Of a DNA stretch of 64,000 nt, positions 1,104 to 62,297 are shown one piece after another. The stretch is from Serinibacter arcticus (lineage in GTDB: Bacteria > Actinomycetota > Actinomycetes > Actinomycetales > Beutenbergiaceae). The stretch covers positions 1,178,001 through 1,242,000 of the forward strand of contig NZ_PYHR01000002.1 of NCBI RefSeq assembly GCF_003121705.1, written 5' to 3'. The notes beneath the pieces were generated by a model. It saw nothing but the letters and a program-made list of their open reading frames with translations. It had not been told where the DNA came from and did no database searches. Both the position numbers and the translations under genes were made by a program. Every line of letters starts with the position of its first letter. Position 1 is the first letter of the stretch.

Positions 1104-1183
1104 GGGGGTACTTCCCGCCCCTCCCGGGGGTACTTTCCGACCCTCCAGGGGGCACTTCCCGACGCCCCCGGGGCACATCCGGC
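1104..1183. repeat. Four tandem 22-bp units, GGGGGTACTT type
   Basis: Units begin at 1104, 1126, 1148 and 1170 with exact 22-bp spacing. The shared core is GGGGGTACTTCCCGAC in the first three; the last is diverged (GGGGCACATCC). The array sits between the end of the sufE-like gene and the start of the GH1 gene, both on the minus strand. It resembles the GAGGGG arrays at 60042-60240. Confidence 0.75.
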
Positions 1184-57939: not shown

Positions 57940-58715
57940 TCAGTCGATCGGAAGGCGGCGCAGGAGCAGGTGCGTGATCAGCGCGGCGACGGCGATGCAC
58001 GGCAGCGCGACCCACCAGCCCCAGGCCGTCGCGCCGAACCCCGAACCCGCCTCGACGTCGTCGAGCAGGCCCCAGTGGGCGACGAGGGAGGGCGCCAGGA
58101 CGAACGGCAGCGCCAGCGTCCCGGCCCAGCCGCCGAGGCGGCGGTAGACGAGGTTCACCGCGAGCCCCGACAGGAACGCCGTCGTGCCGAGGACCGCGAG
58201 CGAGGCGGCGGCCGGCAGCGCGCCCTCGAACGGCGGGACGTCGTACCCCGCGGGCATCCCGGCCCACGCGAGACCGGCGATGACGCGGACCAGCGCCGTC
58301 ACCAGCACGCTCGCCACCGCGAACGAGATCCCGACGACCGGGGCGGCCAGCAGCCAGCCACGCGTGGCGGAGCGACGCGTGCCGCCGGCGGCGACGTGGA
58401 TCGTGAGGAACCCGGCCGCCGTGACGACCCCATCACGAACAGGAACACCTGGGGGGCGCCCACGGGACCGACGGAGATGACGATCTCGCCGTCCTGGCTC
58501 TCCAGGAACCGGGCGAGGAGGGACGTGGCGACGACCTGGACCACCGTGAAGATCGCCCAGAACCACAGGCCGATCGTCCAGACCATCCCGAGGGCGCTCC
58601 AGAACGCCTGACTGGTGGCGCGGGTCTCGAGGCGGCGCCGGCGCTCGGCGCGGTCGGGGGCGGCCGACGGGACGGGCGGGACGGCGGGAGCGGCAGGCAC
58701 CGAGGGTACGGTCAT
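57940..58715 (-). pseudogene. ABC transporter permease of the GntR/YtrA-type operon, frameshift near 58430
   Basis: Small hydrophobic permease, about 258 aa if repaired. The first part (from ATG 58715, LETRATSQAFWSALGMVWTIGLWFWAIFTVVQVVATSLLA to VFLFVMG) and the second ([37 protein letters not shown] to the end LLLRRLPID) lie in different frames. One extra G in the GGGG run at 58428-58431 restores [12 protein letters not shown]. Total 776 bp, one short. ATGA overlap with the ATPase gene. Third gene of the operon. Confidence 0.85.
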
Positions 58716-59599
58716 GACTCCTCCTTCGGGGAGCGGCGGGTGAGGTCGACGAAGAGGTCCTGCAGGGAGACGCCGCCGACGTCGATCCCCTGCTCGCGGG
58801 CGAGGGCCGCCAGGGTGGCGCCGTCGTCGCCCGCGGCCGTGCGGACGGTGAGCTGCGCCGTCGGACCGAGATCGCGACGAGCGAGCACCTCCCTGGTGCC
58901 GACCAGGCGCTCGAGGTCGCTCGCGCGGCCGGTGAGGCTGAGGCCGCCGGCGCGGACGTCGTCGGCGTCGCCGGCGACGAGCACGCGGCCGGCGTCGAGG
59001 ATCACGACGTCCTCGAACATCCGCTCCACCTCGGAGATCAGGTGGCTGGAGATGACGATGGTGCGGGGGTGCGCGGCGTAGTCGGCCAGCAGCGCGTCGT
59101 AGAACGTCTGCCGATTCGGGGCGTCCATGCCGATGTAGGTCTCGTCGAGGAGCGTGATCGGCGCCCGCGCGGCGAGGCCGATGATCGCGCCGACCATCGA
59201 CGTCTGGCCGCGGGAGAGGTGGGCGACCTTCTGCTGGACGTCGAGCTCGAAGGCGTCGGCGAGGCTCCGCGCGGCGTCGGCGTCCCAGTGCTCGCGCAGG
59301 TCCGCGTAGTAGGCGAACGTGTCGCGCACCTTCTCGGTGTCGAAGACGTCACCGCCCTCGCGCACGAGCTGGGTGTCCGCCATGGTGACGGCGTTGTCGA
59401 ACGGGTCCTCGCCGTCGACCAGGATCTCGCCGGACGTCGGGCGGTCGAAGCCCGCGGCGAGCGCGAGCAACGTGGACTTGCCTGCGCCGTTGCGGCCGAG
59501 CAGGCCGGTGATGGCGCCCGAGCGGATCTCGAGGTCGACGGCGTCGAGGGCGGTGACGTCGTCGTAGTGCTTGGTCAGGGCTCGAGTCGTGATGCTCAT
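58712..59599 (-). CDS. ABC transporter ATP-binding protein (YtrB/exporter type)
   Basis: 295 aa. Walker A GRNGAGKST, Q-loop region, signature LSRGQTSMVGAI (degenerate), Walker B ITLLDETYIGMD (Asp then Glu, but Thr-Tyr instead of the usual Pro-Thr), H-loop VISSHLISEVERMF. Such ATPases follow GntR regulators of the YtrA class and export or protect against cell-wall stress compounds. ATGA overlaps the GntR stop. Confidence 0.9.
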   Translation of the reverse strand: MSITTRALTKHYDDVTALDAVDLEIRSGAITGLLGRNGAGKSTLLALAAGFDRPTSGEILVDGEDPFDNAVTMADTQLVREGGDVFDTEKVRDTFAYYADLREHWDADAARSLADAFELDVQQKVAHLSRGQTSMVGAIIGLAARAPITLLDETYIGMDAPNRQTFYDALLADYAAHPRTIVISSHLISEVERMFEDVVILDAGRVLVAGDADDVRAGGLSLTGRASDLERLVGTREVLARRDLGPTAQLTVRTAAGDDGATLAALAREQGIDVGGVSLQDLFVDLTRRSPKEES

Positions 59600-59961
59600 C
59601 GCTGCTCCCCCATCCGGGTGGTGATGCGCTCGCGCAGGGCCTCGGCGGTCAGGCCGAGGCGCAGGGCTGCGTCGATCGCGGGGTCGAGGACGTCGCGGAC
59701 GTAGGTCTCGCGGTCCTTCGCCAGCAGCGCCTCGCGGGCGCCGGGGGCGACGAACATGCCGAGGCCGCGGCGCTTGTAGAGCACGCCCTCCTCGACGAGG
59801 CCGGCGAACGCCTTGGCGGCGGTGGCCGGGTTGATGCGGTAGGTCGTGGCGAACTGGGTCGTGGACATGACCTGCTCCTCCTCTCCGAGGTCGCCGGCGA
59901 GCACCTGGTCGCGCACGTGCCTGGCGATCTGCACGTACAGCGGATCGGGTCCGTCGAACAT
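59596..59961 (-). CDS. GntR family regulator (YtrA subfamily)
   Basis: 121 aa: short N-terminal winged helix (PLYVQIARHVRDQVLAGDLGEEEQVMSTTQFATTYRINPATAAKAFAGLVEEGVLYKRRGLGMFV) and a C-terminal helix of about 40 residues without a FadR/HutC effector domain, the YtrA pattern. GGAGG four bases before the ATG at 59961 gives the start. It leads a gntR-ATPase-permease operon and probably represses it. Confidence 0.93.
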   Translation of the reverse strand: MFDGPDPLYVQIARHVRDQVLAGDLGEEEQVMSTTQFATTYRINPATAAKAFAGLVEEGVLYKRRGLGMFVAPGAREALLAKDRETYVRDVLDPAIDAALRLGLTAEALRERITTRMGEQR

Positions 59962-60041
59962 GACGCCTCCTTGGTTCGTTACTCCACTAATGAACCACGG
60001 AACGCGCCGCCCGTCAACGGCGAGGGGTTTCGGCACCACCC

Positions 60042-60125
60042 GCGAGGGGGTTACGCACACCGGCGAGGGGGTTACGCACACCGGCGGGGGGGTTACGCAC
60101 ACCGGCGAGGGGGTTACGCACATGT
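60042..60125. repeat. Four exact-period 21-bp tandem repeats (array A)
   Basis: Units start at 60042, 60063, 60084 and 60105. Units 1 and 2 are identical: GCGAGGGGG then TTACGCACACCG. Unit 3 has A to G at position 4; the last diverges at its 3' end. A looser copy lies at 60019. The region between the GntR start (59961) and the cysteine desulfurase stop (60242) holds no gene. Confidence 0.88.
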
Positions 60126-60136
60126 CAGGGGTACCG

Positions 60137-60240
60137 AAGCCCCTCGTCGATGGTGCACAAGCCCCTCGCCGACGGTGCACAAGCCCCTCGCCGATGGTGC
60201 AGAAGCCCCTCGCCGGTGTGCAGAAGCCCCTCGCGGGTGG
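60137..60240. repeat. Five 21-22-bp tandem repeats, inverted relative to array A (array B)
   Basis: Units start at 60137, 60159, 60181, 60203 and 60224 (last partial), core AAGCCCCTCGCCGATGGTGC. The reverse complement, GGCGAGGGGCTT, shares GCGAGGGG with array A, so the two arrays face each other. Array B ends at the stop codon of the cysteine desulfurase gene. Confidence 0.88.
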
Positions 60241-60241
60241 G

Positions 60242-61414
60242 TCAGGGGAGGAGCGCGCGGACGGCGGCGACGACGGCAGTGGCCGCGTCTGCCAGCTCCG
60301 CCGGCGTCGTGCTGCGCGACCACGTGAAGCGCAGCGCCGTCTGGGCCGCCTCCCGCTCCACGCCCATCGCCGTCAGCACGTGGGAGGGCTCGTCCGACCC
60401 GGCGTGGCACGCCGACCCCGAGGAGCTCAGCACGCCGCGCTGCTCCAGCTCGAGCAGCACCGCCTCGCCGCTCACGCCGCCGAGCACGAACGACGCGTGC
60501 CCCGGCAGCCGCATCCTCGGGTGGCCCGTCAACCGCAGCCCCGGCAGCAGCGGCCCCGCGCCCGCGAGCACCGCGGCCACGAAGTCCTCGCGCTGCGCCG
60601 CGACCGGGTCGACGCCGTCGGCCGCCGCCGCCGCCCGCTCCGCCTCGGCGAGCCGGAGGGCGACGGCGAACGCGACCGCCCCGGCGACGTTCTCCGTGCC
60701 CGACCGTCGGCCCCGCTCCTGACCGCCGCCGTGCAGCAGCGGCTCGAACCGCACGCCGCGCCTGACCCACAGCGCCCCGGTGCCCTTCGGCGCCCCGACC
60801 TTGTGGCCCGAGAGCGTGAGCGCGTCGACCCCGAGCGCACCGACGTCGAGCGGCAGCCACCCCGCCGCCTGGACGGCGTCGGTGTGCAGCGGCACGCCGG
60901 CCGCGCGCGTCAGCGCGGCGACCTCCGCCACGGGCTGCACCGTGCCGACCTCGTTGTTGGCGAGCTGGAGGGAGACGAGCGCGACGGCGTCGCCGTCCGC
61001 CGCGAGCTCCGCCGCGACGCGCGCGGGATCGACCCGGCCCTCGCCGTCGACCTCCAGCGCCGTCACGGTGAAACCGAACCGCCCGAGCCAGTGCGCGGAG
61101 GCGAGCACGGCGTCGTGCTCGACGGCGGAGACCAGCACCCGCGTCGCGCCCACCGCCTCGCGGCGCGCGAGCGCCAGGCCCTTGACCGCCGTGTTGTCGC
61201 CCTCCGTGCCGCCCGAGGTGAACGTCACCTCGGCGGGCCGCCCGCCGAGCACCGCGGCGACCCCGCGCCGGGCCTCCTCCAGCGCGCCGGCCGCGTCGTG
61301 CCCCAGCGCGTGCACCGAGGAGGGGTTGCCGAACCGGCCGGTCAGGTGCGGCCACAGCGCCTCGAGCACCTCGCGGCGCACGGGCGTCGTGGCGGCGGCG
61401 TCGAGGTAGACCAC
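60242..61414 (-). CDS. Cysteine desulfurase (IscS/NifS-like)
   Basis: 390 aa PLP enzyme. Seen: MVYLDAAATTPVRREVLEAL, NPSSVHALG, FTSGGTEGDNTAV, ALVSLQLANNEVGTVQP, the PLP lysine in LSGHKVGAPKGTGAL, and the catalytic-Cys loop SSGSACHAG. GTG at 61414 follows the nadC stop by four bases. Its place after nadB-nadC suggests it is the NadS-type enzyme that supplies sulfur to the [4Fe-4S] cluster of quinolinate synthase; a general role is also possible. Confidence 0.92.
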   Translation of the reverse strand: MVYLDAAATTPVRREVLEALWPHLTGRFGNPSSVHALGHDAAGALEEARRGVAAVLGGRPAEVTFTSGGTEGDNTAVKGLALARREAVGATRVLVSAVEHDAVLASAHWLGRFGFTVTALEVDGEGRVDPARVAAELAADGDAVALVSLQLANNEVGTVQPVAEVAALTRAAGVPLHTDAVQAAGWLPLDVGALGVDALTLSGHKVGAPKGTGALWVRRGVRFEPLLHGGGQERGRRSGTENVAGAVAFAVALRLAEAERAAAAADGVDPVAAQREDFVAAVLAGAGPLLPGLRLTGHPRMRLPGHASFVLGGVSGEAVLLELEQRGVLSSSGSACHAGSDEPSHVLTAMGVEREAAQTALRFTWSRSTTPAELADAATAVVAAVRALLP

Positions 61415-61418
61415 GGTC

Positions 61419-62297
61419 CTACCGCCCCTCGCCGATCGCGATGTCGAGCCCGAGGTCGATCGCGCCGGCGCCGTGGGTGAGCGCCCCGACCGAGACGAGG
61501 TCGACGCCGGTGCGCGCGATCTCCCCGATGCTCGCGAGCGTCACGCCTCCGCTGGCCTCGACCAGCGCGCGTCCCGCGACCTGGGCGACCCCGGTCCGCA
61601 GATCGGACAGGCCGAAGTTGTCGAGCATGATCGTGCCGACCACGCCCGAGGAGAGCACCGGCTCGATCTGGTCCAGCCGGTCGACCTCGACCTCGATGTG
61701 CGTGGTGTGCGGCAACCGCGCGGCCGCGGCCCGCAGGGCGTCGGTCAGCTCGTCGGCGGGCACGGTGGTGAGGTGGTTGTCCTTCACCATGACGGCGTCC
61801 GACAGCGAGTAGCGGTGGTTGTGCCCGCCCCCGCACGTGACGGCGTGCTTCTCCAGCGCCCGCAGCCCGGGCGTGGTCTTTCGGGTGTCCACGACCCGGA
61901 CCGGGCGACCCGTCGCCGCCGAGACGGCCCCGTCCACGGCGTCGACGTGCTGCCGCGTCCGCGTCGCCACCGCCACCGTCCGGGCGAGGAGGTTGAGCAG
62001 CACCCGCTCCCCGCGGAGCACGGCGCGTGCCGGCCCCGAGATCTCCGCGAGCGCGTCGCCCGGGGCGAACGCCTCGCCGTCGGGCACGACCGCGGAGACG
62101 ACGACGGCGGGGTCGACGGCGCGCATCACGGCCGCGACCACGTCGCCGCACGCCATCACGCCGGCCTCGCGGGCACGCACCTGGGCCGAGGCGACCGCGG
62201 TCGCCGGGACGAACACCTCCCCGGTGACGTCCCCGAACGGTGCGTCCTCGGCGAGGGCGAGGGCGACGACGGCGTCCAGCGCCTGGGTGGTGAGCAT
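61419..62297 (-). CDS. nadC: Nicotinate-nucleotide diphosphorylase (carboxylating)
   Basis: 292 aa enzyme that makes nicotinate mononucleotide from quinolinate and PRPP. Seen: LAEDAPFGDVTGEVFVPA, LLNLLARTVAVATRTRQHVDAV, VVDTRKTTPGLRALEKHAVTCGGGHNHRYSLSDAVMVKDNHL in blocks (DTRKTTPG and RxGLxD-like SLSDAVMVKDNH), EVEVDRLDQI. GGAGG before the ATG at 62297. Between nadB and the desulfurase. Confidence 0.97.
   Translation of the reverse strand: MLTTQALDAVVALALAEDAPFGDVTGEVFVPATAVASAQVRAREAGVMACGDVVAAVMRAVDPAVVVSAVVPDGEAFAPGDALAEISGPARAVLRGERVLLNLLARTVAVATRTRQHVDAVDGAVSAATGRPVRVVDTRKTTPGLRALEKHAVTCGGGHNHRYSLSDAVMVKDNHLTTVPADELTDALRAAAARLPHTTHIEVEVDRLDQIEPVLSSGVVGTIMLDNFGLSDLRTGVAQVAGRALVEASGGVTLASIGEIARTGVDLVSVGALTHGAGAIDLGLDIAIGEGR

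Follow-up and report, generated by a model that had tools for sequence, protein, structure and literature searches.

The window, a stretch of 64,000 nucleotides from the genome of Serinibacter arcticus (G000:C2:1178001-1242000, with G000 denoting the window's own genome), contained two facing tandem arrays in the gap between two genes of the minus strand. The gene immediately upstream of the arrays in the sense direction encoded a cysteine desulfurase-like aminotransferase of class V (PF00266; 60242..61414, minus strand), and its own upstream neighbour was a nadC-like quinolinate phosphoribosyltransferase gene (61419..62273, minus strand). Downstream of the arrays, a GntR-type regulator gene (59596..59961, minus strand; Pfam score of 25.1 against a cut-off of 27) was followed by the gene for an ABC transporter ATPase (58712..59599, minus strand). 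Array A occupied 60018..60122 on the plus strand and array B 60131..60235 on the minus strand, and the 60123..60130 gap between them formed the loop of a predicted long hairpin. The five units of array A spanned 60020-60121 (+) and faced the five of array B at 60131-60235 (−). The gntR start was 58 bases from array A. An earlier note, made from the letters of the sequence, had described two facing arrays in the gap from the gntR promoter to the 3' end of the desulfurase gene, and this arrangement was confirmed by TRF and by the positions of the units. Array B had been described as ending at the stop codon; its outermost core in fact started 7 bases after the desulfurase TGA.

Array A was reported by TRF at 60018-60122 with 5.0 copies and 90% matches, and the 21-bp period given previously was retained. 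The array consisted of five units rather than four, with cores at 60020, 60042, 60063, 60084 and 60105, of which the first was a variant; the unit at 60084 reads GCGGGGGG. Array B was reported at 60137-60234 with a period of 22, 4.5 copies and 92% matches, and the description as five inverted units was correct except that the innermost unit (60131) was a variant. Owing to the variant units and to spacings of both 21 and 22 bp in each array, the internal periodicity was not exact throughout. When each array was read in its own orientation, both showed the same sequence GCGAGGGGNTTNNGCAC with a short tail, which was longer in some units of array B (CACCATC). Unit A, GCGAGGGGGTTACGCACACC, aligned over its full length with unit B, GCGAGGGGCTTCTGCACACC (minus strand), and their cores differed only before the TT and in the two bases that follow. 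Hence, the view that the arrays share GCGAGGGG and differ in the rest had to be abandoned, and a single unit in two orientations replaced the two related but distinct units proposed before.

The window arrays are, with near certainty, one site of a family of 21-22 bp tandem repeats at gene ends. The unit was composed of the core GCGAGGnnnTTnnG and a spacer of 7-8 bp, and an element contained 2-8 copies of the unit, beginning a few bases past a stop codon where the neighbouring genes were convergent or codirectional. In G000, the 18-bp unit pattern (at most 2 mismatches) gave 188 matches against 30 for the reversed control, and the two-unit pattern gave 60 against 0, indicating that the arrays were not due to chance. 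The arrays were spread over most of the G000 chromosome. In the G000 stretches, which were chosen for their arrays, TRF periods of 21 and 22 were found 32 and 81 times, with a next highest count of 20. Among 133 arrays, 81 had at least four units and 52 had two or three. The period close to two helical turns, pointed out earlier for the window, was thus a property of the whole family. Because the search procedure required the core (at most 2 mismatches, with at least 2 exact cores), the conservation of the core is in part a product of the search; the stretches examined were those carrying arrays. No match above the gathering score was obtained with Rfam 15 in nine array loci.

The distribution of the family was explored with two patterns. 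The strict pattern, corresponding to dialect A of G000, had no match in the 23 other genomes of the taxonomic family or in 296 other genomes of the order, and none in a broad collection of genome contigs that may exclude the window's own genome. A family confined to one genome was nevertheless rejected, because arrays were present at the orthologous junction in G004 and G005, two congeners of G000. With the period kept, pairs of the generic core GCGAGGnnnTTnnG were found 177 times in G000, 104 in G023 (another genus), 29 in G005, 20 in G004 and 4 in G006 (Miniimonas); the other 19 of the 24 family genomes had none, and the reversed control was 0 in all 24. In a scan of 396 genomes of the order, 20 matched: these same five with 4-201 matches and 15 with one each, against a reversed control of one match in each of eight genomes, G005 among these. 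When 396 genomes of Actinomycetota were scanned, multiple matches were confined to G000 and two others had one each; the control likewise gave two genomes with one. In the broad contig collection, the generic pattern matched at least 120 stretches from many phyla, a count that is uncontrolled and that random 21-bp tandem repeats can inflate. Of eight genomes behind such matches, only that of Krasilnikoviella flava carried arrays at many loci, with 16 pair matches of a TAG dialect against 0 in the control. The nine-letter core was therefore common to at least four genera. Homology is claimed within Micrococcales only. Several metagenome-assembled genomes of rumen Bacteroidales (L093, L098, L105, L106, L116, L136 and L140) had tandem arrays with a 22-bp unit of the AAATAAGCGCGAGGCGCTTCCG type, and several of these loci also showed the short palindrome AAGCGC/GCGCTT; these arrays are likely a separate family.

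Each genome had its own spelling of the unit. In G000, dialect A carried GG after the hexamer with a spacer that was mostly CACCACC, and both window arrays belonged to it; dialect B carried CC with spacers such as GTGCGGT and GTCCACT and accounted for 93 pair matches. The 67 sites in the G000 stretches examined comprised 33 of pure A, 31 of pure B and 3 mixed. The corresponding letters were mainly TGG, CAG and CGG in G023 (spacer CAGGYAC), TAC or CAC in G004 (with GGCGTTC), and TAC, GGT and GAC in G005. The junction orthologous to the window site in G004 and G005 was spelled differently, with units like CGCGAGGTACTTCTGGGCGT and CTCGCGAGGTACTTGTGGGG. A possible third-dialect array, GGGGGTACTTCCCGACCCTCCC (1104..1173, plus strand; period 22, 3.2 copies), was observed in the window next to the end of a gene on the minus strand, the stop of which was near 1191, and a comparable 22-bp array of five copies, GCCCCTCGAGGGGGTGGTTGCG, lay between convergent genes at G000:C2:2308139-2308247 (L029).

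The identity of units over the five variable core positions was higher within the same array than between different sites in G000 (0.770 vs 0.687) and G023 (0.824 vs 0.732), and little higher in G005 (0.538 vs 0.497) and G004 (0.534 vs 0.501). The greater likeness of same-array units in G000 is what independent local slippage of unrelated sequences would produce. This origin is next to impossible, because the same core occurred at 67 sites in G000 and also in other genera, where the reversed controls gave 0; the family-wide matches bear out the earlier view that more than local slippage was at work. The local amplification in G000 and G023 also agrees with neutral repeats, which would arise by ordinary recombination and slippage with no dedicated enzyme and be left where they are harmless, and so does the absence of Y1_Tnp from all five array-bearing family genomes. 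The retention of nine core positions across genera argues against them.

Sites persisted at some orthologous gene ends while the dialect changed. Facing arrays were present at the window site in G000, G004 and G005, where both flanking proteins matched (77-84% identity). Three of the 12 sites in G004 matched a G000 array site (two by both flanks and one by one flank), as did 1 of the 16 in G005, and 7 of the 33 sites in G023 had at least one flanking protein in common with a G000 array site. A further G004 site and three G005 entries, two of them a duplicate, matched by one flank only at another place. According to a rough estimate in which about 3% of the G000 gene ends carry arrays, chance retention would give fewer than one site per genome.

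The placement of the arrays was evaluated using a GC-frame gene caller made for this analysis. The addition of further stretches to those with the 133 arrays and the merging of neighbours gave 128 sites, namely, 67 in G000 (71 before overlapping stretches were merged), 33 in G023, 16 in G005 and 12 in G004. Six sites were inside gene calls and one had no gene call on one side. The remaining 121 comprised 59 convergent, 54 codirectional and 8 divergent sites; one of the divergent sites is a duplicate, since the G005 sites 43318 and 3642994 are one sequence (100% over 6001 bp) and were counted twice. In these stretches, the gaps of 60-1500 bp that lacked an array were distributed as 25 convergent, 151 codirectional and 89 divergent (p 2.8e-19), a comparison in which gaps shorter than 60 bp were excluded and the convergent excess may thereby be inflated. 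The depletion of divergent gaps is safe, and the convergent excess is partly due to gap length. For codirectional sites, the array was nearer to the upstream stop in 48 of 54 cases (median of 10 vs 77 bp). All six Krasilnikoviella loci read, from the 16 pair matches in that genome, were at a gene 3' end (four convergent, one codirectional sense and one codirectional antisense), and both Miniimonas loci read were at a gene 3' end and convergent. The depletion of divergent gaps (8 of 121) would also be expected of neutral repeats.

Two arrays of G000 were observed inside called long open reading frames (L026 and L033; G000:C2 2001429 and 2521723). Three others (L022, L037 and L045; G000:C2 near 1301755, 2786736 and 3173404) lay beside copies of about 2.4 kb with 89-94% identity. 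Ribosomal RNA near these repeats was ruled out, because the shared 2.4 kb holds a gene for a DUF222 protein (688 aa in L037).

The tight anchoring to stop codons would be explained if the arrays were boundary elements of the host, in which rows of protein-docking positions two helical turns apart limit read-through or separate transcription units and selection keeps the arrays that work at gene ends. In convergent gaps, arrays of a single orientation were nearer to the stop of the in-sense gene in 35 cases against 16 (p 9e-4), 23 of the 59 convergent gaps had at most 30 bp outside the array, and some sites persist between genera, all of which is in keeping with a boundary role. However, single-orientation arrays at codirectional sites were in sense in 24 cases and in antisense in 17 (p 0.35), one shared site (G000 3316498 and G023 2674239) differed in its orientation against the genes, and most gene ends carried no array. 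A boundary function is therefore possible but doubtful. The same anchoring is not predicted by a role in nucleoid organisation, in which arrays would seed a filament of nucleoid protein with no local effect. The constant period of 21-22 bp and the spread over most of the chromosome would suit such filaments, and the available part of a survey of constant-size repeats proposes this role for repeats of 20-21 and 52 nt (PMC8161180); overall, it is distinctly improbable for the present arrays.

The stability of the arrays as RNA was also assessed. The window site gave a strong predicted fold for either strand (z −9.6 and −11.1), with no T-run after the strong stem, and the two sub-threshold matches of Rfam 15 in 59000-61500 were not on the arrays. 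Transcribed facing arrays could hence pair into a long stem, by which transcription would be terminated or the 3' end of the mRNA protected, as in the multi-hairpin terminator suggested in the earlier note. Single arrays of at least three units were moderately stable in the sense direction in G023 (28 arrays, mean z −2.56) and G005 (11, −2.53), with −1.35 for the five arrays of G004. The mean z in G000 was −0.66 (68 arrays, sd 1.65), which is not unusual. Moreover, 100 of the 121 classified sites contained a single orientation only. The identity between facing arms, compared with that between units of different sites, was 0.653 vs 0.687 in G000, 0.744 vs 0.732 in G023 and 0.513 vs 0.501 in G004, whereas the facing arms of G005 were somewhat more alike (0.577 vs 0.497). 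There was thus little sign of selection for paired arms: it was unsupported in G000 and hardly supported in G023 and G004, and G005 leaned the other way. Near-perfect palindromes ending some Krasilnikoviella arrays would favour a hairpin, and the lack of an Rfam match on the arrays tells against one. Taken as the general function, an RNA hairpin is quite unlikely and the terminator proposal is poorly supported. In the Krasilnikoviella flava loci L089 and L304, the terminal palindrome CGAGGTAGTTCGAACTACCTCG resembled a forward array capped by an inverted half unit. A GC-rich inverted repeat was seen by eye directly before the arrays at L025 and L046 (G000:C2 near 1742087 and 3245169), and some sites may therefore carry a conventional hairpin as well.

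Sites with both orientations were facing in 17 cases and back-to-back in 4 (p 0.007). Successive arrays at a distance of 300-3000 bp formed 16 pairs, of which 14 faced inward (8/9 in G000, 3/4 in G023, 2/2 in G005 and 1/1 in G004). Under four equally likely orders, the latter result has a probability of about 3 in 10 million. The facing order noticed in the window is thus meaningful, as had been supposed, and the 14 inward pairs of 16 add to the case against neutral repeats, which are rather unlikely. One to three called genes were enclosed by 13 of the 14 inward pairs. The remaining pair was the G005 copy of the window site, with arrays 358 bp apart and no gene called between them. The outer genes converged in 11 of the 14 pairs; hence, either array comes after the stop codon of the outer gene on its side, and the genes in between appear as if inserted. 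The enclosed genes scanned included those for a beta-lactamase-like protein, an FGGY kinase, a TetR regulator, a GNAT acetyltransferase, a DUF3592-like protein and a family resembling AbiEi.

The AbiEi-like family was enclosed by four inward pairs, namely, L039 (protein X, 307 aa) and L232 (protein Y, 302 aa) in G000, L269 (302 aa) in G023 and, in part, L322 in G004. The members had 63-75% identity to X, and the paralogs X and Y were 74-75% identical. The AbiEi models of PADLOC matched with E values of 2.1e-13 (X), 7.6e-9 (Y) and 5.6e-15 (G023 protein), Pfam AbiEi_4 matched Y only (E 0.041), and NCBIfam gave no match to the candidate protein. REase_MTES_1575 matched weakly, with E values of 0.038 (X), 0.0048 (Y) and 0.02 (G004 piece) and scores of 14.5-17.4, under the cut-off of 38.2. 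The LD and EYDGRExH residues were invariant in the four family sequences and may correspond to the catalytic motif of PD-(D/E)XK nucleases. In G004 L322 (G004:C9 794001-795058), only the C-terminal 182 residues matched, and another small reading frame replaced the N-terminal part. The array pair around the family gene at G000 1861204/1862331 recurred in G004 (793884, 795064) and G023 (2526997, 2528069) with the orientations kept and mostly in each genome's own dialect, although one G004 unit was still CCC. Since L232, L322 and L269 are orthologous and represent a single site, the enclosed family provides two independent cases.

The outer genes of L039 were 65 bp apart in G023, with a two-unit array only, and 1193 bp apart in G000, with array, X and array in succession; judged by these coordinates, which are those of the gene caller, the array-X-array segment looks like an insertion. 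In G000, X was inside all-GG arrays (dialect A) and Y inside all-CC arrays (dialect B), a match that could be due to chance, as two sites differ in dialect by chance half the time. Homologs of X and Y with at least 60% identity were found only at array-enclosed places among the 358 loci examined, and the G005 stretches examined contained no homolog of the candidate protein. Matches of 30-35% to X and Y occurred in four loci of non-carriers (L067, L070, L072 and L073), indicating that related proteins are not confined to carriers. Furthermore, the other enclosed genes differ from one another, and enclosure thus does not single out the AbiEi-like protein.

The best reading of these results, to which a probability of about 0.38 was assigned, is a lineage-specific gene-end repeat family that resembles REPs and would be spread by a DNA-binding enzyme of its own. 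A period of 21-22 bp places every core on one face of the helix, and the core would be read in DNA by a dedicated enzyme. A system read in DNA is preferred because single arrays of G000 were not unusually stable and facing arms were little selected to pair. The enzyme may copy and homogenise the arrays of its own dialect, by analogy with what RAYTs are thought to do for REPs, and slippage would change the array length. The AbiEi-like protein, the C-terminus of which weakly resembles a restriction endonuclease and the gene for which lies between inward-facing arrays, is the best candidate for this enzyme. Protein binding, the other function suggested in the earlier note, thereby has a candidate protein. 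Arrays would survive just after stop codons, where they do the least harm and possibly some good. Spread of the family by its own means is favoured over a host boundary element because the AbiEi-like gene is enclosed by arrays. In a stronger form of this reading, which is unlikely, the repeats and the enzyme would be partners with one AbiEi-like nuclease paralog per dialect, the drifting specificity of the enzyme would respell the arrays, and the core would also be the common signal behind 20-23 nt repeats, including the CCGCGA of B. weihaiensis.

Repeats of 20-23 nt and constant size have so far been catalogued with no function or shared sequence. The shared core, the stop-codon anchoring, the retention of sites through dialect change and the candidate gene turn this puzzle into testable questions about the reader of the core, the means by which it is copied and the course of transcription when an array is absent. 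The earlier note would have been refuted by arrays missing from close relatives and from the rest of this genome, and the arrays found elsewhere in G000 and in its relatives contradict both.

In the available part of their paper, Subirana and Messeguer (2021; PMC8161180) described tandem repeats of constant size (20-23 nt), with Actinobacteria among the carriers and a function that is not known. A genome had several families, alike in length but not in sequence, short signals were common to the repeats of one species, and no sequence conservation was reported, which was an observation of the authors rather than a requirement; their search setting was at least four repeats per array. The terms "intergenic", "stop codon" and "terminat-" are absent from the main text. 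The present family fits this class, which is the closest known system, and adds new features. As far as the accessible part of the paper goes, it shares the period of 21-22, the non-coding location and the several equal-length families per genome, and differs in its shared core, stop-codon anchoring, site retention, inward pairs and candidate enzyme. The signal TCGCGG of the 21-nt repeat of B. weihaiensis (Table 2 in the part of PMC8161180 available) has the reverse complement CCGCGA, which is the 5' end of many cores here; this is a lead only. In the portions of the literature searched, neither this repeat family nor an association of repeats with a protein of this kind was found described.

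Other known systems resemble the arrays in part. Similar to an intrinsic terminator, the arrays have a 3'-end position and, where facing, form strong predicted stems; unlike a terminator, most sites are unpaired, the single arrays of G000 are not unusually stable and the window site has no T-run. The TAACTGA heptamer direct repeats of Beggiatoaceae differ in their 7-bp unit and, in the part of the source available, in their location mostly just upstream of start codons (PMC4679880). AbiEi antitoxins bind inverted repeats, according to the available sections of PMC7319586. The candidate protein matches AbiEi models in its N-terminal part and differs from these antitoxins in an additional C-terminal part, which has a weak match of nuclease type.

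The REP system is a further counterpart. REP and BIME elements are described, in the accessible part of PMC3733652, as located between unidirectional or convergent ORFs and downstream of coding regions, with neighbours often in opposite orientation; several REP families occur per species, and RAYT genes are flanked by GTAG repeats. Unlike the palindromic REP units of 20-40 bp, the units listed here are non-palindromic and form tandem direct repeats with a period of two helical turns. No invariant GTAG/CGTC tag was present among the listed units of G000, G004, G005 and G023, and GTAG occurred inside the Krasilnikoviella core GAGGTAGTT. Mobilisation by a RAYT was ruled out because the Y1 transposase (PF01797) was found in 1 of the 24 family genomes (G003) and in none of the five with arrays (G000, G004, G005, G006 and G023); rather than being a Y1 transposase, the candidate enzyme resembles AbiEi and has a weak match of REase type. 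Compared with REPs, insofar as the available part of that source describes them, the arrays share the gene-end placement, the depletion of divergent gaps and a gene for a predicted DNA-acting protein between inward-facing repeats. If the enzyme is confirmed, the repeats and the enzyme would parallel the REP-RAYT pair, with a different protein in place of the RAYT.
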